Positions 4,034-16,254 of a stretch of 64,000 bases of DNA are shown here, piece by piece. The first letter of the stretch is position 1; the number at the start of each line of letters is the position of its first letter. The stretch spans positions 124,001 through 188,000 of the forward strand of contig NZ_JABEPQ010000001.1 of the NCBI RefSeq assembly GCF_013041615.1, given 5' to 3'. The notes under the pieces were generated by a model. The model worked only from the letters and a program-made list of their open reading frames with translations. It did not search any database and was not told the origin of the DNA. The translations under genes were made by a program, and so were the position numbers. The DNA is from Knoellia koreensis (GTDB lineage Bacteria > Actinomycetota > Actinomycetes > Actinomycetales > Dermatophilaceae).

Positions 4034-4531
4034 ATGAGCGAAGTGACGAAGTCCGTAGACGTCGACGTCCCCGTGCGCACCGCTTACGACCAGTGGACGC
4101 AGTTCGAGACGTTCCCGCAGTTCATGAGTGGCGTGGAGTCGATCACGCAGGTCGACGACAAGCGCAACCACTGGGTCACCAACATCGCCGGCGTGGAGCG
4201 CGAGTTCGACACCGAGATCACCGAGCAGCACCCCGACGAACGCATTGCATGGAAGAGCGTGGACGGCGACGCCAGGCACGCCGGTGTCGTGACGTTCCAC
4301 CGCCTCGATGAGGGCAGGACCCGCGTGACGGTGCAGCTGGACTGGGAGCCATCAGGTCTGGTCGAGAAGATCGGCTCGGCGGTGAACATCGACGACCGTC
4401 AGGTCAGCCGTGACCTCGAGCGTTTCAAGGAGTTCGTCGAGGGCCGCGGCACCGAGACGGGCTCGTGGCGCGGCGACGTCGAGCCGGGCACCGGCGACGT
4501 CACGCGTGGCGACGGCGGCACGACGCCCTAG
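4034..4531 (+). CDS. SRPBCC-family (cyclase/dehydrase-like) protein
   Basis: A 165-residue START/SRPBCC fold. The N-terminus (SEVTKSVDVDVPVRTAYDQW) gives the first strand and the helix with W/F contacts, followed by QFETFPQFMSGVESITQ and the WKS and VTFHRLDEG strands of the lipid-binding cup. The last 25 residues are a Gly/Asp/Thr-rich tail. Such proteins bind hydrophobic ligands; the ligand here is unknown. Its TAG stop overlaps the TAG of the opposite-strand alkB fragment, so the two genes converge end to end. Confidence 0.75.
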   Translation: MSEVTKSVDVDVPVRTAYDQWTQFETFPQFMSGVESITQVDDKRNHWVTNIAGVEREFDTEITEQHPDERIAWKSVDGDARHAGVVTFHRLDEGRTRVTVQLDWEPSGLVEKIGSAVNIDDRQVSRDLERFKEFVEGRGTETGSWRGDVEPGTGDVTRGDGGTTP

Positions 4532-4942
4532 CGAACGCCCCTGGGGCGGAACTGGATCGAGATGCGCGGGCCGACGGGCTCGCTGGTCTTGGGGATCGCG
4601 TGGTCCCAGGTGCGCTGGCACGAGCCGCCCATGACCACCAGGTCTCCGTGGCCGAGCGAGAACCCGATCGACTCGCCGCCACCGCGCGGGCGCAGCTTGA
4701 GGGTGCGGGCCGACCCGACGGAGAGGATCGCGACCATGGTGTCGAGGTCCTTCGCGCGGCCGATGCGGTCGCCGTGCCAAGCCACCGAGTCGCGGCCGTC
4801 GCGGTAGAGGCACATGCCGGAGGTGACGAACCGCTCACCCAGCTCCGCGGCATACCTGCGGCTCAGCTGCTCGCGCGCCTCGACGAGCACCGGGTGGGGG
4901 AGCGTCTCGCCCTCCTCGTAGAACTTGAGGAGCCGGGGGACG
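4528..4942 (-). pseudogene. alkB: alkB homologue, 3' part (separated by the mobile element)
   Basis: This frame holds the C-terminal two thirds of an AlkB-type 2-oxoglutarate/Fe(II) dioxygenase that repairs alkylated bases. It runs from RLLKFYEEGETLPHP through the iron ligands in AWHGDRIGR, the later ligand His in WDHAIPKT, and the 2-oxoglutarate-binding PRISIQFRPRG at the end. All catalytic residues are on this part. The N-terminus is missing: the frame runs into unrelated sequence at about 4943, and the missing 75 codons lie at 15497-15720 in the same frame. An internal GTG near 4890 could start a 120-residue remnant, but the fold would be incomplete. Confidence 0.85.
4937..4942. other. Element junction core (att site, left)
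   Basis: GGGACG is shared with 15497-15502. Sequence to the left continues alkB; sequence to the right is element. The crossover dinucleotide cannot be fixed from the sequence alone. Confidence 0.7.
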
Positions 4943-5548
4943 CCGAGGGTTTCCTATTGACGGTTTACCTCGTGCTCACGGGCTGCCACAGACTCATGAG
5001 AACGGTTCTCATTTGCGACCTGTCTGCCCGTACAGACAGCGAGACGCCATGCCGCTTCGGAGGACGAGAGAAGGGGGGGAGGGGGGTCCGAGGCGGCTCG
5101 AGGCGTGGCGCTGCGCGAGCCTCTCACGGCCTGCCACGATGCCCGGCGACCTCGGCCACCTCGAGGCGCTGCGCGCCCGTCAGCGGCGGCGAGAGCGACG
5201 CGGCGAGAGCGCTCGACGACGACGGCGACGACGGCCTCGACGACGGGCGCGACGTCGACCTCGACGAGAGCCACGACGACGGGCTCGACGACGGCCACGG
5301 CCACGACGACGACGGGCTCGAGGGCGCTCCTCTCGCGGCCTCTCGCGGGCGCTCACGGGCTCGAGGTGCTCGCGCTCGACGAGGGCCAGGACGACGCGGG
5401 AGACGGGGCGCACGGGCGCGAGGAGGGCGGGGTCGACGCCGGGCTCGAGGGGTGGGGGATCTCCCCGCGAGGAGGTAGGGGGTATGCCGCGCCGAGAGGG
5501 TAGGGGCCTCCGCCCGGCGCTCGAGGTGGGGGCCTATCGTCAGCGCTC
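4943..5548. other. Element left-end region without a confident gene
   Basis: About 600 bp. The outer 100 bp hold a Zur-like palindrome (4998-5012) and an inverted repeat CTGTCTG/CAGACAG (5020-5039), possibly a recombinase arm or promoter site. 5205-5330 is a GAC/CTC-rich low-complexity tract. Read on the plus strand it would encode an Asp/Gly run with scattered His; on the minus strand a Val/Ala/Glu run. Neither reading has a convincing start, ribosome site or known domain, so no gene is called. Confidence 0.5.
4998..5012. promoter_or_regulatory. Zur-box-like palindrome inside the mobile element
   Basis: TGAGAACGGTTCTCA is a perfect 7-1-7 palindrome (extendable by one base each side) that fits the actinobacterial Zur pattern TGRNAANGNTTNYCA. 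It resembles the two boxes at the znuA start of this same window. The gene it would control is not clear. Confidence 0.45.
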
Positions 5549-5839
5549 GTGAGGCTGCACCACTACACCAACGAGGCAGGGGCTCGAGGCATCGAGGCTC
5601 GAGGGTTCGCGGTCTCGCACGTCGGCGACTCGGCGGGGCGCTCATGGTTCACGGACGGCGTCGACTCCTTCGTCGCCACGGGCTCGCGCGAGTGGCGCGT
5701 CACGGTCGAGATCCCCGACGACGTCGCCGAGGCATACCGCTATCGGTTCGAGGACGGGACGCCGTACCTCGGCAACTACCTCGTGCCGTGGGAGGTCGTG
5801 AACGCATACCGGCCCTTCACGGTCGAGCGCCTCACCTAG
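5549..5839 (+). CDS. Small protein with an ADP-ribosyltransferase-like HYT motif
   Basis: A 96-residue protein with GTG start. The opening MRLHHYTNEAGARGIEARGF followed by GRSWFTD resembles the first strand and helix of small ADP-ribosyltransferase-fold families (HYT...G..I...G). The C-terminal part VTVEIPDDVAEAYRYRFEDG and YLVPWEVVNAYRP would supply the remaining strands. A catalytic Glu cannot be assigned. It is one of only two plus-strand genes in the element and is followed 8 bp later by a hairpin. The ART relation is a motif impression; it may act as a toxin, a phage-type modifier or neither. Confidence 0.6.
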   Translation: MRLHHYTNEAGARGIEARGFAVSHVGDSAGRSWFTDGVDSFVATGSREWRVTVEIPDDVAEAYRYRFEDGTPYLGNYLVPWEVVNAYRPFTVERLT

Positions 5840-5847
5840 GACGCGAA

Positions 5848-5880
5848 GAGGCCCGCCTCCCACGCGGAGAGACGGGCCTC
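5848..5880. terminator. GAGGCCCG-armed hairpin
   Basis: GAGGCCCG (5848-5855) pairs with CGGGCCTC (5873-5880), with further pairing of CCTCC to GGAG inside. It lies between the ends of the converging genes 5549-5839 and 5894-6064 and could terminate both. Confidence 0.7.
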
Positions 5881-5893
5881 GGTGCTCGCGGTG

Positions 5894-6064
5894 CTACATC
5901 TGCCCGAGGGCGCGTGTGCGGGCCTTGCGCTCCTGCGAGGCCTCGGCAGCCTGCACCGCCTCGGCGATCAGGTCGCGGTGCCATGCCGCGTGACGGGCGC
6001 TGTCCTTGACGGCAGCGCCGCACACCTCGCACCCGTTAGCCGCCTCGAGTCGTGCGTCTGACAC
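5894..6064 (-). CDS. 56-residue zinc-finger-like protein
   Basis: A small GTG-started frame encoding a 56-residue protein beginning VSDARLEAANGCEVCGAAVK and ending in a charged helix rich in Ala, Glu and Arg. The CEVCG pair followed by two His (RHAAWH) could bind one zinc. A purine-rich GAGGGGAGCAGGGGAA stretch precedes the start. It is bracketed by two hairpins with the same GAGGCCCG arms (5848-5880 and 6165-6200), which makes it a separate transcription unit in the element. Function unknown; similar short CxxC proteins are common in actinophages. Confidence 0.6.
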   Translation of the reverse strand: MSDARLEAANGCEVCGAAVKDSARHAAWHRDLIAEAVQAAEASQERKARTRALGQM

Positions 6065-6164
6065 TTCCCCTGCTCCCCTCCTCGTGATGCCGCGACGGAT
6101 GCGCGGCGGGACGTTGGGAACGATAGCCGGTCGCGCCGACGCACTAGCGGAGCCGAAACGACGA

Positions 6165-6200
6165 GAGGCCCGCCTCCCCCGCGACAGGGAGACGGGCCTC
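6165..6200. terminator. GAGGCCCG-armed hairpin
   Basis: Same 8-nt arms as the hairpin at 5848-5880 (GAGGCCCG and CGGGCCTC) with a different loop. It lies 23 bp past the last gene of the seven-gene minus-strand module and probably ends that transcript. Confidence 0.7.
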
Positions 6201-6223
6201 GGCTCGTGCTGGTGGTGGTGCGG

Positions 6224-6532
6224 TCAGTAGTCGCGGCCCTCGGCGCGGAGGACGTCCTCGAAGCGCGAGAGGATCTCGCCCGCGCCTCGGAGGTCGTCGG
6301 CGTCGACATGCCCGGCGAGCCACAGCCCGCGCACGACGTCGGCGGCGGGGTCGTCGAGCGACGGCCCGAGGGGCGACGGGACGAACTGCCAGGACGCGGG
6401 CACCTCCTCGCCCTCGGCGTGCAGCGTGTCCGCGATGGCGAAGTGCCACGCGAGGGAGACGCCCCACGGGTCGAGGGCGAGGTCGCCTTGCCTCACCTCG
6501 TCGAGGAGGAGGCGCACACCACGGGCGCTCAC
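6224..6532 (-). CDS. Hypothetical protein, last gene of the seven-gene module
   Basis: 102 residues from a GTG whose TG is shared with the TGA of the gene upstream (GTGA overlap). The protein begins MSARGVRLLLDEVRQGDLAL and contains WGVSLAWHFAIADTLHAEG and a Pro-rich middle, ending LSRFEDVLRAEGRDY. It is acidic with no signal peptide or membrane segment. I do not recognise a family. Being the last gene of a chain in which every stop overlaps the next start, it should be translated together with the others. Confidence 0.6.
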   Translation of the reverse strand: MSARGVRLLLDEVRQGDLALDPWGVSLAWHFAIADTLHAEGEEVPASWQFVPSPLGPSLDDPAADVVRGLWLAGHVDADDLRGAGEILSRFEDVLRAEGRDY

Positions 6533-6768
6533 GAGAGCACCTCGGCGGGGCAGCGCGAGCCCGCGAGGAGCGAGCCGCACCCATCACACGAGGAGCGAGC
6601 GAACTCGACGTGCTCGCCCTCGCCGTCGCACACCACGACGACGAGGCCCTCGACGGCCTCGAGGGGCGCGGGCTCGGTTGCGGGGCAGTAGTGCTCGTGC
6701 CCGCTGGTGTCCGCGTTGGCGGCTGCAGAGGTGCAGCACGCACAGAGGAGGAGCGGCGTCGCGGTCAT
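6529..6768 (-). CDS. 79-residue cysteine-rich protein
   Basis: The protein opens MTATPLLLCACCTSAAANAD and has a second cysteine cluster SSCDGCGSLLAGSRC near the C-terminus, with HEHYCPA between them. The CxCC and CxxC pairs could hold one or two zinc ions. The ATG overlaps the stop of the preceding gene by 4 nt, and its own stop overlaps the following GTG. Function unknown. The N-terminal stretch is mildly hydrophobic but too polar for a clear signal peptide. Confidence 0.6.
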   Translation of the reverse strand: MTATPLLLCACCTSAAANADTSGHEHYCPATEPAPLEAVEGLVVVVCDGEGEHVEFARSSCDGCGSLLAGSRCPAEVLS

Positions 6769-6965
6769 CGGCCCCCCTCCTCGTCGACCGGGCGGAGGTG
6801 CTCGCGGAGAGCGCGCACCACGGCACCACCCGCGAGGCGAACGCGGACCATGCCGGGCTCGAAGGGCACCGGCCCGAGGACGGTCACGCGCTGCACGCGG
6901 TAGGTCATGCGCGTCACGCCGAACGACACACGGCCCGAGGGGATCTCCCACACGACGGCGCTCAT
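6765..6965 (-). CDS. 66-residue hypothetical protein
   Basis: A small basic protein starting MSAVVWEIPSGRVSFGVTRM with alternating hydrophobic strands (VQRVTVLGPVPF, MVRVRLAGGAVV), suggesting a compact beta fold. Both ends overlap neighbouring genes by 4 nt. I recognise no family. Overlap on both sides and frame-consistent codon use support it as a real gene. Confidence 0.55.
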   Translation of the reverse strand: MSAVVWEIPSGRVSFGVTRMTYRVQRVTVLGPVPFEPGMVRVRLAGGAVVRALREHLRPVDEEGGR

Positions 6966-7519
6966 CGGTCGCCCTCCTCGAGGATCTCGGCGACGGCGGC
7001 GCGGGCCTCGTCACGGTGGGCGAGGTAGAGAGCGCGGCCCTCGGCCTCGACGTCGTCGACCTCGTCGAGGTCGCCCTCGTCGTCGAGGCCCTCGGCTGCA
7101 GCCTTGACGAGGAGGAGCGCGAGGCGGCGCGCCACGGCCTCGAGGAGGACGGAGGCGGCGTAGGTGAGCCCGTCGCCCTCGCCCCACTCCTCGGCGGCGG
7201 GTGCGAGCGGCTCGGCCAGGAGCCCGACCTCGTCGGCGTAGCCGTCCTGCCAGAGGCAGAGGTCGGCGAAGGCGCGCCACCGCCCGTAGGTGTTCACGGG
7301 GAGGGCCTCGCGGGCCACCTCCTCGACGTGGTGCTCGAGGTCGCCGGGGGTGTCGAGGACGTCGTCGCGGAGCCGCTCGGCGATGTCGTCGCGGACGCCG
7401 AGGAGGAACACCGCGCCGGGACTGTCGCGGCGGTCAGGGTCTCCCACCTCGGCGAGCCGGGCGAGCGTGTAAACGTCGAGGGCCTCGAGGTCGAGGCGCT
7501 CGGGGCATGCGGTGGTCAT
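6962..7519 (-). CDS. 185-residue acidic hypothetical protein
   Basis: The largest gene of the coupled module. It starts MTTACPERLDLEALDVYTLA and is strongly acidic with long predicted helices: the middle contains DDIAERLRDDVLDTPGDLEH, the C-terminus GDLDEVDDVEAEGRALYLAH. No membrane segment and no known motif is seen. The sequence also contains a GTGTAAAC site (7467-7474) in codons for Val-Tyr-Thr. Start and stop each overlap neighbours by 4 nt. Confidence 0.6.
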   Translation of the reverse strand: MTTACPERLDLEALDVYTLARLAEVGDPDRRDSPGAVFLLGVRDDIAERLRDDVLDTPGDLEHHVEEVAREALPVNTYGRWRAFADLCLWQDGYADEVGLLAEPLAPAAEEWGEGDGLTYAASVLLEAVARRLALLLVKAAAEGLDDEGDLDEVDDVEAEGRALYLAHRDEARAAVAEILEEGDR

Positions 7520-7779
7520 CGGTTCCCCTCTCGGCGGGCCTTGCGCTGTGCAGCGATGGCGGGACGGTTGGCGGCGTAGTAGCGGGCGACGGCGGCGCGG
7601 TTCTCGCGGCGCGCGGTCTCGGGCTCGCGCTCGGCCCGCTCGCGGACGATGGCGGCGGAGCACGGGCGGCAGTAGACGCGGAGCCCGTCGGCGCGGGTGC
7701 GGTCCTTGCCGAACGCGGAGCGGTCGAGGGTGCTCTCGCAACGCGGGCAGGTCTTGAGGTCGCGGCCAGTCGCTTTCAT
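7516..7779 (-). CDS. Zinc-ribbon protein resembling phage endonuclease VII N-terminal regions
   Basis: 87 residues. The N-terminal half CPRCESTLDRSAFGKDRTRA followed by DGLRVYCRPCS gives a CxxC...CxxC zinc ribbon of the type found in phage recombination-endonuclease VII-like and related accessory proteins. The C-terminal half is a basic helix (RENRAAVARYYAANRPAIAA). The His/Asn catalytic part of endonuclease VII is absent, so nuclease activity is not implied; nucleic-acid binding is likely. Start and stop overlap neighbours by 4 nt. A related ribbon is in the gene at 11762-12421. Confidence 0.65.
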   Translation of the reverse strand: MKATGRDLKTCPRCESTLDRSAFGKDRTRADGLRVYCRPCSAAIVRERAEREPETARRENRAAVARYYAANRPAIAAQRKARREGNR

Positions 7780-8042
7780 CGGGCACCGCCTCGAGCTCGA
7801 GCGTCGGCGTCGGTCCACCGTCGGCGGCGCTCGGCGAGAAGGACGGTCACGACGGCCCCGTCGCGGGCCACGACGACGCCGAGGTCGCCCCGCTGGTGGA
7901 CGCGGCCTCGGTCGCTGCCGTAGACGACGGAGGCGTCGCGGACGGTCTCGACGACGTCGGCCCACGAGACGCCACGGGCGCTCATCTTGGCGAGGGAGTG
8001 AGCCGTCGGGCGGAGCCGCTCGGCGTCGGCGCGGAGGCTCAC
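7776..8042 (-). CDS. DUF4258-like protein
   Basis: 88 residues. The segment RPTAHSLAKMSARGVSWADV followed by VVETVRDASVVYG and a strand pair GDLGVVVARDGAVVTVLLAE matches the DUF4258 pattern (H..ekM..RgIs..dV...l...), a small fold distantly related to RelE/BrnT-type toxins. Many members sit beside antitoxins, but no obvious antitoxin is paired here: the neighbours are a 64-residue membrane protein upstream and the zinc-ribbon gene downstream. Overlaps of 4 nt on both sides place it in the seven-gene module. Confidence 0.6.
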   Translation of the reverse strand: MSLRADAERLRPTAHSLAKMSARGVSWADVVETVRDASVVYGSDRGRVHQRGDLGVVVARDGAVVTVLLAERRRRWTDADARARGGAR

Positions 8043-8233
8043 GCGGCCACCTCCTCGAGGAGGGCGGCGGCAAGGGCCAGGACGGCGAGCCCGGCGAGGA
8101 GGAGAGCGTCGCGGATCTCGGCGAGGCGGGAGTCGCGACGCCCGGCGAGCGGGTCGGACACAAGCGGGCGCGGCTGGCGGGCGGCGGCGACGAGGTCGAG
8201 GGCCTCGGCGGTGTGGCGGTCAAAGGCGGTCAT
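8039..8233 (-). CDS. 64-residue single-span membrane protein, first gene of the module
   Basis: The first gene of the seven-gene coupled operon (8233 down to 6224). It begins MTAFDRHTAEALDLVAAARQ and ends in a hydrophobic helix (DALLLAGLAVLALAAALLEE), so it is probably a tail-anchored membrane protein. The 20 nt around its start (plus strand GTCATGGCTGGCGGGCTCCT, 8229-8248) are identical to those around the recombinase start at 15427-15446, with AGGAG as the ribosome site. Function unknown. Confidence 0.6.
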   Translation of the reverse strand: MTAFDRHTAEALDLVAAARQPRPLVSDPLAGRRDSRLAEIRDALLLAGLAVLALAAALLEEVAA

Positions 8234-8258
8234 GGCTGGCGGGCTCCTATCTGTGGGG

Positions 8259-8299
8259 CCTCCCCGCGCCCGAGGGGTCGAGACTCGAGCGCGGGGAGG
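8259..8299. terminator. 11-bp GC-rich hairpin
   Basis: CCTCCCCGCGC (8259-8269) and GCGCGGGGAGG (8289-8299) lie just beyond the stop of the minus-strand gene 8318-8962 and before the next minus-strand operon, as expected for a terminator between units. Confidence 0.65.
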
Positions 8300-8317
8300 G
8301 GACTAGCGGGGGAGGTG

Positions 8318-8962
8318 TCAGGCGGCGGCGCTGGTGCCCTTGTAGGTGTCCTGACAGGTGGCGCTGGTGGGCGTCGCGGTCGCGGACGCGGGCAGCGGGG
8401 AGAGGAGGACGGACGCGCCCTCGGCGAGCGTCCATGCGACGCCGTCGGCGTCGGTGCCGTCGTCGCGGGTGATCTTCACGCCGACGTAGGCGATCCGTCC
8501 GGCCTCCATGAAGGTCTTGCAGCCCTTCGTGAGGGTTGCGGTGTAGCCCTCGGGGAGGCCGGGGAGGGACAGGCCCGAGACGTAGCCGGGACGGGTGCCG
8601 GTCGCGGAGACGGAGCCATCCCAGGCATAGGACTCGCCGGGGAAGAACTCGAGCCCGCTCGGGAGGGACAGCACACCGCTCGTGACGGTCGGCGCGGTCT
8701 TCGTGGTGGTCGTCGTCGCGGTGCTGTTGAGGGCGAGGCCCTGTGTCGTCCACATGCCGACGAACTTCCCCGTCGAGCCGTTGCCTCGGATGTTGGCGTG
8801 ACCGAAGAAGGCTGCGAGGGCTGCGCCCATGCTGGCGACGAGGAGGAAGGACAGCGCGCCGGTGACGAGGCGGGCGCGGCGTGTTGTCGGGCGGAGGACG
8901 GCGAGCGGGGAGCGGCGCGCGGTGTGGCGAGCGCTGCGGGTTGTCGCGGGGGTGGTGCTCAT
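8318..8962 (-). CDS. Predicted membrane-anchored or secreted protein of the element
   Basis: 214 residues. After a basic Thr/Arg-rich N-terminus a hydrophobic segment at about 33-54 (LVTGALSFLLVASMGAALAA) can act as a signal anchor or long signal peptide. The rest is Thr/Ser/Gly-rich, predicted beta, with two cysteines (GCKTFMEAG and ATCQDTYKG) that could form a disulfide. The layout resembles proteins with SipW-type signal peptides and other surface or pilin-like subunits, but no specific family is recognised and no dedicated signal peptidase is present in the element. It has its own promoter region, divergent from the XRE regulator, and a terminator hairpin behind it. Confidence 0.6.
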   Translation of the reverse strand: MSTTPATTRSARHTARRSPLAVLRPTTRRARLVTGALSFLLVASMGAALAAFFGHANIRGNGSTGKFVGMWTTQGLALNSTATTTTTKTAPTVTSGVLSLPSGLEFFPGESYAWDGSVSATGTRPGYVSGLSLPGLPEGYTATLTKGCKTFMEAGRIAYVGVKITRDDGTDADGVAWTLAEGASVLLSPLPASATATPTSATCQDTYKGTSAAA

Positions 8963-9053
8963 GATCTGAGGTGCTCCTCGTGTGTCGGGATTGGGTATCT
9001 CGTGCCGAGATCCCGGAACGGACATACGGACCATAAGCCACCGGGGAGACAAG

Positions 9054-9091
9054 GTAAAGACTCCACAGAGGCGGCGTCGTGTCGTCTTTAC
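9054..9091. promoter_or_regulatory. Inverted repeat between the XRE gene and the secreted-protein gene
   Basis: GTAAAGAC (9054-9061) and GTCTTTAC (9084-9091) flank 22 nt in the 163-bp divergent region 8963-9125. The position suits an operator for the neighbouring XRE regulator, which would control itself and the divergent gene. Confidence 0.5.
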
Positions 9092-9125
9092 GGAACCGTG
9101 ACGGAAGGGCCTACTCTGTGCGCTT

Positions 9126-9383
9126 GTGAAGAACGAGGGGACCGACCTGCGCGAGGTCGCCGCGCCGAACCTGCGAGCCCTGCGAGCGCGGAAGCGCTGG
9201 CGGCAGGCAGACCTAGCCGAGGCCGCGCGGATGGCGCGCTCGACGCTCGCCGAGGTCGAGGCCGGGAAGCGGCGGCTCTATGTCGACGAGGCGGTCGACA
9301 TCTGCGCGGCCCTCGGCTGCACGCTGGCGGATCTCCTCGCCGGGGATGAGTGCGCCGACGCGAGGAAGGCCCTCGGGATCTAG
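9126..9383 (+). CDS. XRE-family helix-turn-helix regulator
   Basis: 85 residues with GTG start. The whole protein is one Cro/CI-type HTH: NLRALRARKRWRQADLAEAA gives helices 1-2 and MARSTLAEVEAGKRRLYVDE the recognition helix with the typical S-T-L-A-E-V-E-A-G-K pattern, then a third pair of helices (ICAALGCTLADLLAGD). No ligand or oligomerisation domain is present. It is one of two plus-strand genes in the element and faces the secreted-protein gene across an inverted repeat. A role as the element's repressor is likely but inferred from position and fold. Confidence 0.85.
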   Translation: MKNEGTDLREVAAPNLRALRARKRWRQADLAEAARMARSTLAEVEAGKRRLYVDEAVDICAALGCTLADLLAGDECADARKALGI

Positions 9384-9393
9384 CCAGGCGGGC

Positions 9394-9401
9394 GTGTAAA
9401 C
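9394..9401. promoter_or_regulatory. GTGTAAAC site
   Basis: GTGTAAAC lies 10 bp after the XRE gene stop. The same octamer is at 7467-7474 and as an inverted pair at 13800-13817. Candidate binding site of an element-encoded regulator. Confidence 0.35.
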
Positions 9402-9408
9402 GACGAAA

Positions 9409-9461
9409 GCCGCCCCATCCTGTCGAGGAGCCCGCCAAGGCTGGCGACAGGATGAGGCGGC
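9409..9461. terminator. Strong bidirectional hairpin after the XRE gene
   Basis: GCCGCC plus CATCCTGTCG (9409-9425) pairs with CGACAGGATG plus GGCGGC (9445-9461), one base bulged on each side. It separates the plus-strand XRE gene from the oncoming minus-strand gene 9549-10088. Confidence 0.75.
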
Positions 9462-9548
9462 AGGGGTCGAGTCTAGGCGGCGTCGAGGTCGACGGGCGCG
9501 GGATCGGGGATGCCGAGGGCTACGTCTTCGCGATGGGGCCTAGCGGGC

Positions 9549-10088
9549 TCACGCGGACTCGAGGACGGCCTCGCGGAGGTCGGCGAGCGTGTCCTCGTCG
9601 AGCGGCTCGACGCCGTCGAGGCCGGGCTCCTCGTCGGGCTCCTCGAGCGACCATGCGCGGAGGCGGTAGCGCTCGATGGCCTCCTCGCGGAGGCGGCGGT
9701 GATCCTCGAGGGCGGCGCGCTGGCGCTCGCGGTACTCGAGCACCTCGGCGGGAGCCATGCGGACGAGGTCGCCCGCCTCGACGGCGGCGTCGACTAGGCG
9801 CGTGTCGCGGGCGAGGGTGCGAAGGCCCCAGGCACGCGCGGCCATGCGCTCGCCGTGGAAGAGGCCACGGCCACGGAGGCGACGCTCGACGATCTCGCGG
9901 AGCACCTCGAGCGCGCCGTCGCGGCCCTCGAACGCATAGGCGAAACGCACGCGGTCCACGTTGTCAGGGTTGCCGAGGACGGTCTCCTCGAGGGGGTGCA
10001 GCGGTCGAGGGCCTCGAGCGACGCGGAGGGCGCGGCGCTGCGCGTTGGCTGCGAGGTCGACGAGGGAGGGCGGGGTCTCGGGGAGCAT
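9549..10088 (-). CDS. 179-residue hypothetical protein
   Basis: Begins MLPETPPSLVDLAANAQRRA and is largely helical and highly charged, with an Arg-rich N-terminal half (LREIVERRLRGRGLFHGERM) and an acidic C-terminal tail (EEPDEEPGLDGVEPLDEDTL). It may bind nucleic acid through the basic half; no known domain is recognised. The leader AAGGACTTTCGCT before the ATG is a degenerate form of the leader found at two other genes of the element. It is the last gene of the 10663-9549 module. Confidence 0.55.
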   Translation of the reverse strand: MLPETPPSLVDLAANAQRRALRVARGPRPLHPLEETVLGNPDNVDRVRFAYAFEGRDGALEVLREIVERRLRGRGLFHGERMAARAWGLRTLARDTRLVDAAVEAGDLVRMAPAEVLEYRERQRAALEDHRRLREEAIERYRLRAWSLEEPDEEPGLDGVEPLDEDTLADLREAVLESA

Positions 10089-10115
10089 TAGCGAAAGTCC
10101 TTCACTGACAGGGGT

Positions 10116-10283
10116 TTACGTCTCGGAGGCGATGCGGTCGCGGAGGGTGCCGACGTCGGAGACGAGGGCGCGGGCCGTCGCCTCGAGCCGGTCGAGGACG
10201 TCGTCGAGCGGCTCCTCTGCGAGGGGAGGGCGCGACACGGGGACGAGGCGAACGACGTTGTGGGGCAACGGATCGGGGATCAT
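10116..10283 (-). CDS. 55-residue helical protein
   Basis: A short frame whose ATG overlaps the TGA of the preceding gene (ATGA). It begins MIPDPLPHNVVRLVPVSRPP and continues with an amphipathic helix DDVLDRLEATARALVSDVGT. This suggests a small coiled-coil or dimeric partner of the 127-residue protein upstream. No family recognised; the 4-nt overlap is the main support. Confidence 0.5.
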   Translation of the reverse strand: MIPDPLPHNVVRLVPVSRPPLAEEPLDDVLDRLEATARALVSDVGTLRDRIASET

Positions 10284-10663
10284 GCGCCCCACCGCCCGGC
10301 GTTGGCCGCGCGGGTAGCGCGCTCGACATCGACCTCGTCGAGAGCCCGCCCGAGGCTCGCGAGGATGCGCTCGTTAGTCAGGAGGTGGCCCACCTCAGCG
10401 AGCACGGCCTCGGAGCGCATGCGACAGGTGACGTACACGGCACCGGAGGACGACACGCGCTTGTAATGCGGGGGAAGGCGGAGCGCGTCGAGGATCTCGT
10501 CGGCGCGCTGCTCGGCCTCGGGAACGTCGACCATGACGAACGTGAGGACGAGGTGCGGCATCTCCTTTTTGCGGGTGCGGGCCATTGCTCGCCCGTAGGC
10601 GTCGAGCATGGCAGCGATCCACTCGCGGTCAGACTGCGAGAGGTTGAGAGGGTGTGCGGTCAT
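10280..10663 (-). CDS. 127-residue hypothetical protein, first gene of its module
   Basis: Begins MTAHPLNLSQSDREWIAAML. The middle shows alternating strands and helices: EMPHLVLTFVMVDVPEAEQR, then HYKRVSSSGAVYVTCRM, then helices to the end. A small alpha/beta fold seems likely; no catalytic motif is identified. Its start region (plus strand CATGGGTGAGAGTCCTTGTC, 10661-10680) is identical to that of the gene at 11762-12421, which suggests shared translational control or duplication of the leader. Confidence 0.55.
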   Translation of the reverse strand: MTAHPLNLSQSDREWIAAMLDAYGRAMARTRKKEMPHLVLTFVMVDVPEAEQRADEILDALRLPPHYKRVSSSGAVYVTCRMRSEAVLAEVGHLLTNERILASLGRALDEVDVERATRAANAGRWGA

Positions 10664-10695
10664 GGGTGAGAGTCCTTGTCTTGCAATGGAAACGG

Positions 10696-10748
10696 GAGAG
10701 GCCCACCCGAGAAGCGTTGCAGGGCAACGATCCTCGAGCGGGCCTCTC
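10696..10748. terminator. GAGAGGCCC-armed hairpin
   Basis: GAGAGGCCC (10696-10704) pairs with GGGCCTCTC (10740-10748), enclosing a second stem CGTTGC/GCAACG. It lies between the minus-strand modules ending at 10767 and starting at 10663. Confidence 0.7.
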
Positions 10749-10766
10749 GGTGTCGGATCGAGGTGG

Positions 10767-10991
10767 TCAGCCTCGGATGCGGCGAGCGCGGGCGCGGTTC
10801 GAGCCCTCAGACGTCGAGAGGACGAACTCCTCGACGGAGACGCCCGCCTCTCGGGCCTTGCGCTCGGCGATGATCCGGCGCGGGGTGCTCATCGTCGCGA
10901 GGATGGCTCGAGCGACCGCGCCGTCGTCAGAGGCGACGCCGCCTCGGATGCTCGCGGCGATCTCGGCGGCGGTGCGCTTGTCGGCGCTCAT
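10767..10991 (-). CDS. 74-residue hypothetical protein
   Basis: Begins MSADKRTAAEIAASIRGGVA and ends in a basic tail NRARARRIRG. Helical throughout: TPRRIIAERKAREAGVSVEE followed by EFVLSTSEG resembles a short ribbon-helix or antitoxin-like pattern, but no family can be assigned. Its start overlaps the stop of the 247-residue gene by 4 nt. Confidence 0.5.
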   Translation of the reverse strand: MSADKRTAAEIAASIRGGVASDDGAVARAILATMSTPRRIIAERKAREAGVSVEEFVLSTSEGSNRARARRIRG

Positions 10992-11731
10992 GCGCGGCCA
11001 CCACGACGGCGGGCGCGGTGCGCGGCGGCGTGGGCGTCCTTCGCCCTCTCGGCCTCGGCCTCGAGGTCGGTGCCCAGGACGACGGCCTCGCCGCTCTCGG
11101 CAGCCTGTCGCACGAGGTCGCGAGGAGCGATGCGGACGGCGTCGCCGATGTCGCGGAGGCGCTGGTCGAGCCCGACGACGCGGCGCTCGCCCGTCGGCGA
11201 GGCGTAGGCGAAGTGACCACGGCCCACGGTGCGCGAGGTCTCGGGGCGGACGCCCACGACGTTAGCGAGGGCCTCCCGCTCGCGCACGGCCTCCTCGAGC
11301 GCCTCGAGGGCCTCGAGGGCGCGGGCGTCGGCGTCGAGGTAGCGCTCGCGGGTGACGGCGAGGGCGGCGTCGCGGCGCTCGCCCGTCCACGCGGCCCACT
11401 GTGCGGCGACGTAGGCCTTGCCCGCTGCGGTGGCGCGGCGCTCGGCGGTGCGAGCGACTAGGCGCTCGTGGGCGGTCGCGGCCTCGCGCTCGGCGAGCCA
11501 GAGGTCGCGAGCGTCGCCCGACGGGGCGGGGTGCGCGTCGGTGTAGGCGCGCACGGCGGCGTTGTGGGCGCGGTGCGCCTCGACGGAGGCCTCGCGGGCC
11601 TCCTGCCATGCGGCGTACTCGTCAGCCACGCCGAGAGCCTCGCGCACGGCCTCCGGGGCGATGCGCTGCAGCCCGTCGCCGGGGCGGTAGTCAGCGGGAG
11701 GGCAGGGGAGCCAAACGTGAGAAGCGGTCAT
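10988..11731 (-). CDS. 247-residue coiled-coil-rich hypothetical protein
   Basis: Begins MTASHVWLPCPPADYRPGDG. Most of the protein (about residues 40-170) is Ala/Glu/Arg-rich helix with heptad character (EAATAHERLVARTAERRATA; LEALEALEEAVREREALANV). A shorter beta part then follows (RTVGRGHFAYASPTGERRVV), then another helix to a basic tail. It looks like a structural or DNA-associated protein; no known domain seen. The leader before the ATG is a variant of the element's repeated GGACTC leader. Confidence 0.55.
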   Translation of the reverse strand: MTASHVWLPCPPADYRPGDGLQRIAPEAVREALGVADEYAAWQEAREASVEAHRAHNAAVRAYTDAHPAPSGDARDLWLAEREAATAHERLVARTAERRATAAGKAYVAAQWAAWTGERRDAALAVTRERYLDADARALEALEALEEAVREREALANVVGVRPETSRTVGRGHFAYASPTGERRVVGLDQRLRDIGDAVRIAPRDLVRQAAESGEAVVLGTDLEAEAERAKDAHAAAHRARRRGGRA

Positions 11732-11761
11732 GATGGGTGAGTCCTGTTCTGTGAGAGGGCA

Positions 11762-12421
11762 TTACGAGAGGGAGAAGCCACGACGCGGCCCGTAGGGGCG
11801 TCCGTAGCGGCTGCGCGGGACGTAGGCGCGCTCACGCTCGGTGCGCTCGTCGCGGTAACGGGGATCGGTGGCGCGCTTGTCGCGAGCCTCAGCGGCGCGG
11901 CACTCGCGGCACTTGGCGAGCGGGCGACCGTTGGCGCGGTGCGTGAAGTCGTCGACAGAGCGCTCGCGGCCACACGGCCCGGCGCACGCCTTGACGGGGC
12001 GGGGCTCGGTGCCGACAGGGGCTCGACGGGGAGCGCGGAGGAGGTCGAGCGGGAGCGGCTGGCGCGGGATCTCCTCGACGATCTCCTCGAGGCTGTCGTC
12101 GTCGAGGTCGACGAGGATGCCGTCATCCCAAGCGAGGTCGACGTCGTCGTCGAGGTGCAGGAGCCCGACGACGGCGGTAACGGTGCCACCGTGGCGGACG
12201 AGGCGGAGGGCCTCGGTGTGGTCAAGGGCGGCGATCTCGTCGAGCGCGCGCCCGAAGGCGTGGAGCCCGAGGTCGAGCCCGGCCTCGCGGCAGAGGGTGA
12301 ACAGGTCGCGGCGCGAGAGGCGCACGGCGACGGCGTCGGGCTCGGCGTAGTCGTCAGGGAGCGGGCGGGCGGCGACGTGGAGGAGCGCACGCGCGGTGCG
12401 CTGCGTAGCGGTGAGGCTCAT
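11762..12421 (-). CDS. 219-residue protein with C-terminal zinc ribbon
   Basis: The N-terminal 140 residues are helical and acidic (LFTLCREAGLDLGLHAFGRA; LDDDVDLAWDDGILVDLDDD). The C-terminal part carries a CxxxC...CxxC ribbon: CAGPCGRERSVDDFTHRANG, then CRECRAAEARDKRATDP, then a basic Arg/Tyr tail. The ribbon pattern parallels the protein at 7516-7779 and many actinophage accessory proteins. It probably binds nucleic acid; activity unknown. Its leader is the 20-nt sequence shared with 10661-10680. Confidence 0.6.
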   Translation of the reverse strand: MSLTATQRTARALLHVAARPLPDDYAEPDAVAVRLSRRDLFTLCREAGLDLGLHAFGRALDEIAALDHTEALRLVRHGGTVTAVVGLLHLDDDVDLAWDDGILVDLDDDSLEEIVEEIPRQPLPLDLLRAPRRAPVGTEPRPVKACAGPCGRERSVDDFTHRANGRPLAKCRECRAAEARDKRATDPRYRDERTERERAYVPRSRYGRPYGPRRGFSLS

Positions 12422-12911
12422 GGGTGAGAGTCCTTGTCATGGTGGGGTGTCCTTTCATGGGGCGACCGGGCGCGCTTGCGACCGGGGCGCACGGCCTCTA
12501 GGCGCGTGCTGGCGGCGGGGCGGGCAGCGTTGCGAGAGTGAGGCCCTCGACGTCGCGGCGACGCCGAGGGCCTCGGACCCATCACAAGAGCGGCCACCCA
12601 TAGCCGCCTCACCTCCCCTCGAGGGGGAGGGAGTCAAAGGGGGTGTCTCCCGCGCGGGCGCGGGCGGAGGGACTTGGAGGTGACGAACCCACGCGGGAGA
12701 CGGTGTCGCGGCCTCACCTACAGAGACGCGACGGAGGAGGGCCTCCCCCGTCCGCTCGACGCGCTGCCAGATACGCGGAGGGACGGGGGAGGCGGTGCTC
12801 GAGGCGGAGCGGCTCGACGCCCTGCTCCCATGACCAAATGAGGAAGGGCGGAGCGGCTCGACGCGCTCGAGCGGCTCGAGCGCGAGGAAGGACTCTCGCG
12901 GGCTCGAGGGA
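12422..12911. other. Non-coding segment with hairpin, purine palindrome and 18-bp direct repeats
   Basis: About 490 bp without a convincing gene. 12540-12574 is a perfect GAGGCCCTCG hairpin with an inner GTCGC/GCGAC stem. 12612-12630 is the near-palindrome CCTCCCCTCGAGGGGGAGG. 12803-12820 and 12847-12864 are identical 18-bp direct repeats (GGCGGAGCGGCTCGACGC), followed by partial copies. This may be a leader, a regulatory region or an origin-like locus. Confidence 0.5.
12540..12574. terminator. GAGGCCCTCG-armed hairpin
   Basis: GAGGCCCTCG (12540-12549) and CGAGGGCCTC (12565-12574) pair perfectly, upstream of the minus-strand gene 11762-12421; it likely ends transcription from the unit starting near 13178. 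Confidence 0.65.
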
Positions 12912-13178
12912 CTAGCGGAGGATGTCGCGGGCGGCGCCCTCGACGAGGGCGTCGAGACGGGCCAGGAGCCCGGCAGCCTCCTCGAAGTCGTGACGGGCGA
13001 CGGCGTCGCCGATGGCGGCGTGTATCTCGCGGCTCTCGGCGACGAACCGGGCGCGCTCGTCTGCGCGTTGCTCGCGGTACTCGGCGACGCGGTGAGCGGC
13101 GCGGCAGAAGCGCGCCCCGTGGGCCTCCTGTGAGGCGTCGAGCGGTCGCGAGCACCTGCGGTAGGCGCAGGGCGTCAT
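12912..13178 (-). CDS. 88-residue zinc-finger protein of actinophage type
   Basis: Begins MTPCAYRRCSRPLDASQEAH and continues GARFCRAAHRVAEYRE. This C..(4)C...C..H pattern with aromatic residues is the form seen in many small actinobacterial and phage proteins that resemble a one-zinc treble clef. The C-terminal half is a helix pair (AIGDAVARHDFEEAAGLLAR). It is the first gene downstream of the element's large non-coding region and lies closest to the recombinase. Function unknown; DNA binding, possibly a recombination directionality factor, is conceivable but not supported by more than size and position. Confidence 0.6.
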   Translation of the reverse strand: MTPCAYRRCSRPLDASQEAHGARFCRAAHRVAEYREQRADERARFVAESREIHAAIGDAVARHDFEEAAGLLARLDALVEGAARDILR

Positions 13179-13271
13179 GGTGCCTCCTAGGCGTGTGGTG
13201 GCCCGTGTGGGCGTATGTACGGACGGAGGCCGAAAGAGAAGCCGCCCGAGGTGGGCGGCGTTGCATACGGG

Positions 13272-13293
13272 CCTCTATGGGATACGTCTGTGA
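13272..13293. repeat. 22-bp direct repeat, copy 1
   Basis: Contains CTCTATGGGATACGTCTGTG; identical copy at 13430-13451, 158 bp away. Confidence 0.8.
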
Positions 13294-13429
13294 GGGGTGC
13301 CGGATCGGCTCACGTTTGCCGGAAAGTCTCACGCACTGAGACGACGGCCTCGACGGCGGCAGGGCGCGAGAGGCGGGTCTCTACAGGGGAGGTGTCCGCG
13401 ATGGTGCCTAGCGGCTCACGCGCACTCGC

Positions 13430-13451
13430 CCTCTATGGGATACGTCTGTGA
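13430..13451. repeat. 22-bp direct repeat, copy 2
   Basis: Identical to 13272-13293. The 30 bp just before it (from about 13398) resemble 9530-9560 elsewhere in the element (both read CGCGATGGNGCCTAGCGG). Confidence 0.8.
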
Positions 13452-13617
13452 CGTTGGGGCACAACGGGTTTCGGCCAAACCTGCAGGTCAGAGGGCATGT
13501 ATTTTGCCCGCCGAGGGTGGGTGCGGCTCACTCGCGTTACCGCTTCGTTACAGGCCATCTGCAGCCGGAGCGGCCTCGTGCCGCACCGGTGAGGCGGCGG
13601 GCGGCGGGCTCCTAGCT

Positions 13618-13731
13618 AAACCTCACCCATAGGGGGGACACGGGAGCAATCCCCATTAGGGGGGATGCTTTTTGTCGAGTATCAGTCAGTTACAGGAAAT
13701 GCCTCCCGTGTTCCCCCTATGGGTGAGGTTT
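13618..13731. repeat. Long inverted repeat with AT-richer centre
   Basis: The left arm 13618-13648 (AAACCTCACCCATAGGGG onward) matches the complement of 13700-13731 with one substitution and one single-base difference in length. The 51-nt centre is AT-richer than its surroundings and contains its own hairpin ATCCCC-attag-GGGGGAT followed by GCTTTTTG, which looks like a rho-independent terminator. This could be a replication-origin cruciform or a structured non-coding RNA. Confidence 0.75.
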
Positions 13732-13799
13732 CAAGGCACCTCGAGCCGCCCCTCCCCGCGTCGCACCTCGGCCCGGCGCGGCTCGCCCTCCCGCGAGGC

Positions 13800-13817
13800 G
13801 TGTAAACGGGTTTACAC
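13800..13817. promoter_or_regulatory. GTGTAAAC palindrome
   Basis: GTGTAAACGGGTTTACAC has two 8-bp arms across a GG centre. Single copies of GTGTAAAC occur at 7467 and 9394. A likely operator for a dimeric element regulator. Confidence 0.55.
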
Positions 13818-13961
13818 GGCCCGGCACGGGCTCGAGGAGGAGCGGCGCGGCCTCGAGGACGCCCGCTCGCGGCCCGTCAGCGGCTCGAGGGCCTCGGGCA
13901 CGACAGAGGCCCTCCTCGGCCTGCAGCGGCGCGGGGAGGGCCTCGACGAGGGCCAGGAGGA

Positions 13962-15431
13962 CTAGGCGACGATGCGCGAGCCGCCCTCGGCGTCGGGAGC
14001 GATGCCGCGAGGGTGCGCGGGCTGCGCGACGAGGGTTACCCGCGAGGCGTCGAGCCCGTGGACACCTCGACGGCCCTTGGACACGGTCAGGACCGCGACG
14101 TTGGCGGAGAGGAGGGCGCGGCGCGCCTCGACGTCGCCCGCCTCCCACGTCTCGCGGAAGGTCGAGCCCGTGCCGACGAGGGCGACCTCGGGGGAGGACG
14201 CGGCGGAGCGGAGGGCGGCGCGGCGCTCCTTGAGCGAGGCGAGGCGAGCCATGAGGGAAGCGACGTCGGCGTCGTCCTCGCCGAGGGCTGCCGTCGTCTC
14301 GGCGACCGCGCGCTCGACGTCGGCGAGGTCGGCGGCGCTGGCGCTCTCGGTCTCGGTGAGGGTGAACACCTCCGCGTCGCCCACGGCCTCGAGGAAGACG
14401 CGCTCGACGTACTCCTCGACGCGCTCGGCGTTCACGGAGACGCCGGGGCAGACGCCTCCGTCGCCCTTGCGGCTGCAGACATAGGAGACGATCCCCTTGC
14501 CGTCGCTGCGGACGTAGAGCGGCGAGCCGCACGCGGCGCAACGGATGACGCCCGACAGGAGCCGCGCGGCGCGGCGACGCTGCGGTCGCACCTCCTCGCC
14601 CTTGGCGGGCACGAGGAGCGCGCGGAGGCGGTGCCAGGAGTCGCCGTCGAGGATCGGCTCGAAGATCTCAGCGGGGAGCCCGTCCTCGCCGCGCACCACC
14701 TCGCCGCGATGGGTCACGCGCCCGAGGATGGCGTCGGAGGTGAGGACGCCGAGGAGCACCGTCCGCGACCACCGCTTGCCGCTCTTGGACGGGATCTCGC
14801 GGGCGTTGAGGTCGTGGGCGACGGCGTAGACGGTCTCCCCGTCGAGGACGCGGCGCGCGGCCTCGCGGATCACCTCGGCCTCCGTGGGCTCGATGACGAG
14901 GACGCGGCCCGGCCCGTCAGGGTTCGGCGCGGAGACGTAGCCGTATGGGCGCTGCCCGCCCGCGTACCGGCCCGAGGTGCGGAGAGCCGCGAGGGAGGAC
15001 AGGACACGGGTGCGTGTGTTCTCCCGCTCCATGCGCGCCACCTCGGCGAGCACAGAGGCGATGATGCGCCACGCGGGCTGTGACGAGGCGAGCCCGTCGC
15101 GGTCGGCGATGAAGAGAGCCGAGGGGCGCTCGTCGAGCACCTCGATAAGCGCGGCGAGAGCGCCGAGGCCCTGTCGACTCCACCTGTCGAACTTCCACAC
15201 CGCGAGGACGTCGGCCTCGCCGTCGCGGAGCATGCGGAGGGCCTCGTCGGCGTTGGCGCGGGCCTTGCCGCCCGAGACGCCGTCGTCGGCCAGGACGCGG
15301 ACGACGTCCCATCCCTCGCGCTCGGCGCGGAGGCGGAGGTCGGCCTCCTGCCTCGCGATAGAGGTAGAGGCGTCGTCGCTCGAGGACAGACGGACGTAGA
15401 GGACGGCGCGGGGCGTGGGCTTGCGGGTCAT
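13962..15431 (-). CDS. Large serine recombinase (integrase)
   Basis: 489 residues from ATG 15431 (the frame stays open 14 codons upstream, but AGGAG precedes this ATG). The N-terminal resolvase domain starts RAVLYVRLSSSDD with the nucleophile Ser at about residue 16 and continues with the SRQGLGAL and MERENTRTR segments (about 100-150). The recombinase domain follows (GGQRPYGYV; LNAREIPSKSGKRWS), then a zinc ribbon CAACGSPLYVRSDGKGIVSY followed by VCSRKGDGGVC, then a coiled-coil stretch of the type used for synapsis control. It catalyses site-specific integration at attB inside alkB, 66 bp away. No recognisable directionality factor is adjacent. Confidence 0.93.
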   Translation of the reverse strand: MTRKPTPRAVLYVRLSSSDDASTSIARQEADLRLRAEREGWDVVRVLADDGVSGGKARANADEALRMLRDGEADVLAVWKFDRWSRQGLGALAALIEVLDERPSALFIADRDGLASSQPAWRIIASVLAEVARMERENTRTRVLSSLAALRTSGRYAGGQRPYGYVSAPNPDGPGRVLVIEPTEAEVIREAARRVLDGETVYAVAHDLNAREIPSKSGKRWSRTVLLGVLTSDAILGRVTHRGEVVRGEDGLPAEIFEPILDGDSWHRLRALLVPAKGEEVRPQRRRAARLLSGVIRCAACGSPLYVRSDGKGIVSYVCSRKGDGGVCPGVSVNAERVEEYVERVFLEAVGDAEVFTLTETESASAADLADVERAVAETTAALGEDDADVASLMARLASLKERRAALRSAASSPEVALVGTGSTFRETWEAGDVEARRALLSANVAVLTVSKGRRGVHGLDASRVTLVAQPAHPRGIAPDAEGGSRIVA

Positions 15432-15496
15432 GGCTGGCGGGCTCCTGTCGTGCTGGTGGTGCGGAGCCGCCACAGTACCGCAGTTAGGAGAGTCTT

Positions 15497-15502
15497 GGGA
15501 CG
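15497..15502. other. Element junction core (att site, right)
   Basis: GGGACG, as at 4937-4942. To its right alkB codons continue into the N-terminal part; to its left is element sequence. Confidence 0.7.
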
Positions 15503-15720
15503 TCGACGACGCGTTCGTACATCTCGCGGCGCTCGGCCTTCCACGGCACGTCGCGGTGGAGCACGTCGAAGAGCCCGTCCGCGCCGCCGAGCCAGCCCGG
15601 TCGGTAGTCGACCCACGCGCCGCGGGTGAGCGTTGTGCGGGTCAGACCCGAGCCCAGGTCGTGCAGGACGATGTCGTCACCGGTGTCGAGGAGCGAGGCC
15701 TGCCATGCCGTTGCCGTCAT
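15497..15720 (-). pseudogene. alkB: alkB homologue, 5' part (separated by the mobile element)
   Basis: Codes for the first 75 residues of the AlkB protein (MTATAWQASLLDTGDDIVLH through RREMYERVVDVP), then reads RLS and a stop in element sequence. The pattern WVDYRPGWL...LFDVLHRDVPW is the usual N-terminal lid of actinobacterial AlkB. The metal and 2-oxoglutarate residues lie on the other fragment (4528-4942). The reading frame is the same on both sides of the core, so excision would restore the gene; while integrated, the repair enzyme is presumably inactive. Confidence 0.85.
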
Positions 15721-15753
15721 GGTGACAGCGTACGCCTTGTTCGAACGAATGTG

Positions 15754-16254
15754 CTAGTGCGTGGCGGAGGCTTCGGTGAGGCGGTCGAGCTCGGCGGTCA
15801 GCTCGCGACGCAGGTCGTCGTGCTGCGGGCCGAGCACCGTCTCCGGCGCTGGGTCGCTCCAGCGCTCGCCGGGGTGCATCCACACCGGTTTCGGCGCGAC
15901 GTCGCCCTCCCAGTCGTAGCGCGGCCACACGTGCGCATGCAGGAACGCGTCAGTGTTGCCGAGGATCTCGTAGTTGACGCGCCGGAACGCCGAGTCGCGG
16001 CGCGAGCAGACGACATGGACCGCCTCGCCGAGTCGGTCCATGTCGTCGAGGAACGCCAGCCGTCGCTCCCGCGGCAGGTCGGTGAGCCGGTCGATGCCGG
16101 GGGTGTCCGAGATGAGCACGCTGTAGCCCGGGATGAACTGCACGTCGCCGATGCACGCGAACCCGGCGGACAGGCGGCGTAGCACCGACGGGTTCTCGCC
16201 GCGCAGTGCGGCGCCGACGCGGTCACGGGTCCAGTCGAGCGGCTCGGCGGTCAT
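15754..16254 (-). CDS. HIT-family protein (diadenosine-tetraphosphate-hydrolase-like)
   Basis: 166 residues. HIT-type nucleotide hydrolases use an H-x-H-x motif; here FLHAHVWPRYDWEGD near residue 115 supplies two His, the third position being Trp-Pro, a variant seen in actinobacterial proteins annotated as Ap4A hydrolase-like. The upstream FIPGYSVLISDTPGIDRLTD corresponds to the family's substrate strand. It probably hydrolyses or transfers nucleotides; the substrate is unproven. It is divergent from the small membrane-protein gene at 16279. Confidence 0.75.
   Translation of the reverse strand: MTAEPLDWTRDRVGAALRGENPSVLRRLSAGFACIGDVQFIPGYSVLISDTPGIDRLTDLPRERRLAFLDDMDRLGEAVHVVCSRRDSAFRRVNYEILGNTDAFLHAHVWPRYDWEGDVAPKPVWMHPGERWSDPAPETVLGPQHDDLRRELTAELDRLTEASATH

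Follow-up and report, generated by a model that had tools for sequence, protein, structure and literature searches.

A large serine integrase element splits alkB in Knoellia koreensis in an arrangement that would allow exact restoration of the gene

We found that an element of about 10.6 kb carrying a large serine integrase gene (int) interrupts alkB in Knoellia koreensis, within the 64,000-nt stretch of contig NZ_JABEPQ010000001.1 analysed here (the window). Taken as a whole, the account we regard as very probable is that the element inserted site-specifically, that alkB can be restored, that int stands behind the alkB promoter, and that the insertion, given two undecayed alkB halves, is either recent or can still be reversed. 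The initial annotation had placed the two alkB pieces at 4528–4942 and 15497–15720 on the same strand and in the same frame, and this held when the flanks of the element were joined, which gave a single uninterrupted reading frame on the minus strand, 210 aa long and with VVDVPRLLKFYEEG spanning the junction. The GGGACG that it saw at both junctions of a 10.56-kb element was likewise recovered, at 4937 and at 15497, with a spacing of 10,560 bp. Identity over 6 bp is weak by itself, and it is the join at the level of the gene that serves as evidence. A chance join was rejected because frame, length and ten sister genes agree. Read along the minus strand, the order is an upstream gene that by eye resembles a HIT-family hydrolase, the truncated alkB′, int, some 15 small ORFs and the remainder of alkB, which we take to be the catalytic half. 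The element has a G+C content of 73%, compared to 71% for the window. Pfam PF13532 (2OG-FeII_Oxy_2) matches the K. koreensis genome once, in the split gene, and a profile search therefore found no second AlkB of this family. Dyad symmetry was dropped as support for the att centres, as it was at chance level for both the predicted attP (12/22, reached by 935 of 5000 random sites) and the predicted attB (11/22, reached by 2025 of 5000). The features of the locus are collected in Table 1.

Table 1. Features of the split alkB locus and the inserted element (window coordinates).
Feature	Position	Strand	Basis or remark
alkB C-terminal part	4528..4942	-	Pfam PF13532, join, homologue search
Core GGGACG of attL	4937..4942	.	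Join and degenerate att pattern
96-aa ORF	5549..5839	+	No family
185-aa ORF	6962..7519	-	phrog_4239
244-aa ORF	8318..9052	-	No family, no phage match; signal-anchor-like start by eye
Cro/C1-type HTH regulator	9126..9383	+	Opposite strand to int; domain match
179-aa ORF	9549..10088	-	No family
127-aa ORF	10280..10663	-	G079 homologue, 32%, E 1e-5
247-aa ORF	10988..11731	-	Conserved in G079 element, 32%, E 1e-20
219-aa ORF	11762..12421	-	C-terminal Zn/HNH-like weak match, phrog_2340, E 0.0027
88-aa ORF	12912..13178	-	G079 homologue, 35%, E 9e-10
Long hairpin 3′ of int	13618..13731	-	114 nt, 29-nt arms, z -7.8; single copy in own genome
Large serine integrase gene int	13962..15431	-	489 aa from ATG 15431; Resolvase, Recombinase, Zn_ribbon_recom; phrog_95 integrase
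Truncated alkB′ ORF	15484..15720	-	78 codons, ends ...VVDVPRLS, TAA at 15486-15484
Core GGGACG of attR	15497..15502	.	Join and degenerate att pattern
Putative -10 element TACGCT	15727..15732	-	By eye from sister alignment
LexA/SOS-box-like site TAGCACATTCGTTCGA	15741..15756	-	Upstream of alkB, 10/12 consensus positions

Comparison with an empty alkB in sister strains had been proposed as a check, with relatives that all lack an intact alkB counting against the idea. With the joined 210-aa protein as query, and among the matches listed, alkB was present without internal stops in all ten other genomes of the genus, and the ten align ungapped over the 60 bp that precede and the 50 bp that follow the junction; one of them (L016) reads VDLPRL at the junction motif with its frame open. 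The sister G143 carries the predicted empty site inside alkB, identical at 19 of 19 bp and at 103 positions over 120 bp. A degenerate pattern covering attB, attP, attL and attR gave further matches in G147, within alkB, and in G146, elsewhere. In the K. koreensis assembly the same pattern matched solely the two predicted hybrid sites, attL and attR, and it found no excised form (attB or attP) there. A DNA search found no copy of the element in the ten sisters; in six of them it hit only short segments (36–126 bp), most of which belong to a repeat stretch of the CGACGACG type. On this comparison of sequences, site-specific integration at alkB is near certain.

Across the family, the same query had a match in 169 of 186 genomes, among the matches listed. 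The gene appears to be dispensable, because by the same listed matches it is missing from 17 of the 186 (9 of the 162 good ones). In each of the other 168 alkB-bearing genomes the best listed match was at E 2.1e-73 or better, and insertion at alkB looks unique to K. koreensis among the family genomes, because half a gene would probably not reach this value. To judge the age of the insertion we compared dN/dS in 19 pairs: the split alkB gave 0.15–0.27 against the ten sisters, and the gene of one sister (L008) gave 0.12–0.22 against the other nine. At columns invariant in the others, the split gene has 0 changes, and the sisters 0 to 8 each. Neither half thus appears to have decayed, suggesting either that the insertion is recent or that the gene is still under selection; these values fit both equally.

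The recombinase gene that had been noticed next to one junction proved to encode a protein with Resolvase, Recombinase and zinc ribbon domains, all three above the Pfam cut-offs, and we classify it from these as a phage-type large serine integrase. For its start, ATG 15431 (preceded by AGGAG at 15442–15446) is a better choice than GTG 15473, which the ORF list gives; this ATG lies 52 bp past the alkB′ stop on the same strand. Matches to Int at E 1e-40 or better occur in 6 of the 186 family genomes, and 5 of 396 genomes sampled from the order have one at 1e-90, K. koreensis included in both counts. The nearest full-length relatives are 50–54% identical, and a fragment in a viral contig (L056) reaches 70% over 185 residues. 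No alkB was found at the related loci L003–L007 and L042–L060, within flanks of 1.5 to 10 kb (less at contig ends). The gene at the 5′ side of the integrase could be named in 7 of the 13 related loci listed: a type II/IV secretion ATPase in L062 (Pfam) and in L003, L004 and L063 (by eye), a Mg-chelatase/ComM-like gene in L061 (Pfam) and L043 (by eye), and a luciferase-like oxidoreductase in L007 (Pfam). No Pfam family was obtained for two tested secretion-ATPase fragments or for that of L063. In all seven the neighbour is antiparallel to int, and the idea that these integrases generally capture promoters was rejected for that reason. The four loci with apparent Tad-like type II/IV secretion ATPase fragments beside int come from different genomes, and this gene may be a preferred target of the integrase group.

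Upstream of alkB is a site resembling a LexA/SOS box. The K. koreensis version, TAGCACATTCGTTCGA, has GCAC in place of GAAC and is thereby weakened, compared to TAGAACACCTGTTCGA in a sister; by pattern count alone it does not rise above chance in the window (3 matches with at most two mismatches, 1.67 expected). We scored the corresponding sites by the 12 positions of TCGAACN4GTTCGA at 30 loci, the best-scoring of the 169 alkB genomes. All 30 have an SOS-like box within about 45 bp upstream of alkB, with scores of 12 (5 loci), 11 (21), 10 (3) and 9 (1). In 27 of them no control tile of the same locus equals the score of the alkB box; in L015, L016 and L026 a control tile scores equal to or above it. 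Judged by its upstream box, alkB would belong to the LexA/SOS regulon. The canonical LexA box occurs at six places in the K. koreensis genome, where a reversed control pattern occurs at none, and imperfect boxes precede lexA, one of them sharing the TAGCAC half of the alkB box. In Streptomyces venezuelae, the accessible text of PMC9380542 describes alkB as a LexA target induced 11-fold, with a box that is experimentally validated though imperfect. Four of the six canonical boxes (L096, L097, L100 and L101) directly precede near-identical ORFs with an MVGTELL start, of which three match Pfam DUF222, two above the curated cut-off, and a fifth precedes a mycothiol-S-transferase/DinB-like gene.

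With an SOS-like box upstream of alkB′, and int on that strand 52 bp past its stop, int is probably transcribed from the damage promoter in the integrated state. A scan of 15300–15900 found no promoter- or terminator-like site between alkB′ and int, and it is a near-blind scan, as shuffled sequences give almost nothing either.

The remainder of the element holds few genes that can be named. Relatives of the 185-aa ORF, which has matches in 40 phage records, are labelled OCR-like antirestriction proteins in several Streptomyces phage records; no phage match was found for the 247-aa, 244-aa and 219-aa ORFs. No phage structural or packaging gene was found among 10 ORFs searched with Pfam and 10 with PHROGs, and by gene content the element would not be classed as a prophage. 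Nor was a relaxase or conjugation gene found among 10 ORFs (Pfam) and 10 ORFs (NCBIfam), and it would not be classed as an integrative conjugative or mobilizable element (ICE or IME). As to phage-satellite traits, no family could be named, and one ORF resembles the phage protein annotated as OCR-like antirestriction. PADLOC found no defence gene in 10 element proteins. At the DNA level, identity with a known phage was rejected (three phage records, the best covering 4%), as was identity with a known plasmid (no match), and viral contigs gave no confirmed relative either with single element proteins or with two-row alignments. With short identity at its ends and an empty site in relatives, it reads from its sequence as a site-specific integrative element. 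A perfect palindrome, TGAGAACGGTTCTCA, is seen by eye near its left end at 4998–5012 and may be an operator for the HTH regulator.

A related 11.3-kb element is present in another genus of the family (G079; L110 3258–14535). In common with the alkB element it holds int (36% identical), a long inverted repeat (L110 5378–5513), homologues of the 88-aa, 247-aa and 127-aa ORFs in the same order, and an HTH gene running opposite to int; an ORF at the position of the 219-aa ORF aligns with common motifs, yet has no tblastn match there. The G079 element differs in its target, a luciferase-like oxidoreductase gene of the Bac_luciferase family that runs antiparallel to int, and in its 11-bp end repeat. 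Its two copies, each the 11-mer TGCGGGTTGCG, are spaced 11,267 bp apart and coincide with the points at which the oxidoreductase gene is broken; another common 11-mer was set aside because it lies off these points. G079 was the one related locus in which the other half of the neighbour gene was searched. Because it has a partly colinear relative in another genus, we assign the alkB element on sequence to a small element family.

The hairpin 3′ of int recurs in this group. We scanned from about 75 to 520 bp past the end of the int gene or match under one scoring scheme, and a long inverted repeat followed int in 8 of 13 integrase loci, the window included and L004 left out, with scores of 19–33; among random window stretches 4 of 60 scored 18 or more, with a maximum of 21. 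All six phages examined (L111–L116) have a hairpin in the gap after int, scoring 19–24, and 1 of 156 control tiles scored 19 or more. The Kalimba hairpin overlaps an annotated minus-strand ORF, and that of Zeta1847 is composed of short repeats. In an alignment of eight phage and prophage hairpins, 15 of 32 pairs keep pairing through two-sided change; 23 pairs are lost in one or more of the sequences, and the covariation term reaches only -0.08. The kinship of the window and G079 hairpins with the others rests on position, because they share only 45–57% identity with them. The hairpin was rejected as a MITE, because it is single-copy in K. koreensis and a search of 28 other genomes found no further copy, and Rfam gave sub-threshold matches only. 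A 16-bp piece of its stem has a match in two viral contigs; by eye, the viral contig L106 has no matching hairpin. It may be an RNase III or other regulatory site. By eye, the direct repeat CTCTATGGGATACGTCTGTGA occurs twice at 13275–13460, within the 730-bp non-coding stretch that runs from the hairpin side of int to the 88-aa ORF.

The nearest phage integrases, 47–55% identical and also with a hairpin 3′ of int, are those of the Arthrobacter and Microbacterium phages Tweety19, Reedo, Amyev and Zeta1847, which unlike the alkB element are whole phages of 40–48 kb. Phages of clusters AZ and EH are described, in the accessible part of PMC8758107, as having a serine integrase and no known repressor. 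Closer in outline is SpyCIM1, an island in mutL of Streptococcus pyogenes whose excision is stimulated by mitomycin C, according to the accessible text of PMC3430984 and PMC4689407, and which likewise is a small phage-like island reversibly silencing a DNA repair gene. The insertion point of SpyCIM1 is the 5′ end of a pathogen's mutL, and there are measurements of its cycle, whereas the alkB element lies mid-gene, uses a large serine integrase and is read from sequence alone. In Vibrio splendidus 12B01 a mobile element similarly splits a repair gene, mutS, and its excision rejoins the pieces; per the available text, that element gives mutS a new start and leaves a 2-bp scar (PMC5296598), whereas the alkB element leaves no evident working alkB when integrated and its join is seamless on paper. 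Active-lysogeny prophages, phiSa3mw in hlb among them, inactivate a host gene by insertion, and excision would restore it, as stated in the accessible part of PMC6597384. These are prophages, whereas no phage structural gene was identified in the scanned ORFs of the alkB element, whose target is a repair gene. In the literature passages accessible to us, serine integrase, attB and alkB were not found together, save in one paper, where AlkB is named only as belonging to the family of a phage-encoded dioxygenase.

The integrase most likely inserted the element by recombining its attP with an attB located in codons 73–75 of alkB, GGGACG being common to the two sites, and this step is well supported. 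Because alkB′ is truncated to 78 codons and the catalytic half is promoterless, AlkB would be off in the integrated state. Recombination by large serine integrases is conservative, so that integrase together with a directionality factor would excise the element and restore alkB exactly; the integrase alone normally integrates, and excision requires the directionality factor. We place most confidence in the loss of AlkB on integration, less in the alkB promoter transcribing int, and least in seamless excision. How much regulation to read into this arrangement divides the possible explanations. The one that we consider probable is a simple recent insertion, in which the element happens to use an attB that falls within a dispensable gene; the strain would simply lack AlkB, and excision would not be under regulation. 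The family genomes without an alkB match, the three DNA_binding_1 (MGMT-type) genes that K. koreensis keeps, the apparent uniqueness of the insertion at alkB and the other genes beside other relatives all fit it, and nothing decisive stands against it, although the SOS-promoter layout would then be a coincidence.

That layout gives an anatomical argument, the SOS-like box and int behind its promoter, to the active-lysogeny-like switch proposed in the initial annotation, of which the site-specific split and a frame that exact excision would restore are supported, as are empty sites in sisters; excision and its regulation stay hypothetical, the assembly holding attL and attR only. In a damage-coupled form, release of LexA would open the alkB promoter, transcription would run through alkB′ into int and, with a directionality factor, the element would leave and alkB be restored. 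The canonical boxes and the imperfect boxes before lexA, the spacing and shared strand of alkB′ and int with no terminator-like site seen in the near-blind scan, the undecayed gene and the mitomycin C response of SpyCIM1 speak for it; we nevertheless think it unlikely, as no excision factor was identified in the element for an integrase that by itself normally integrates, the box is weakened to 10/12 in this strain, the related integrases are antiparallel to their neighbours, alkB is dispensable by its distribution, and the assembly holds no excised form. To the same doubtful degree we entertain a fuller version, with the recombinase wired to the SOS promoter, excision mending alkB under that promoter, reinsertion resetting the switch and the conserved hairpin tuning the int message, for example as an RNase III site. 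A dead element or an assembly artefact would suit the small size and the few functions named, and is very improbable given an integrase ORF intact with all three domains, a position within a 1.69-Mb contig and junctions that match the empty site of the sisters.

Switching of DNA repair genes by inserted elements has precedents in mutL and mutS. Even without a switch, the simple insertion adds alkB to the insertion targets that we found and outlines a small family of elements in which a hairpin recurs next to the integrase. If the switch is true, a damage-inducible promoter belonging to the interrupted gene would drive the recombinase directly, a minimal feedback circuit that would account for the element departing just as its host comes to need the gene.
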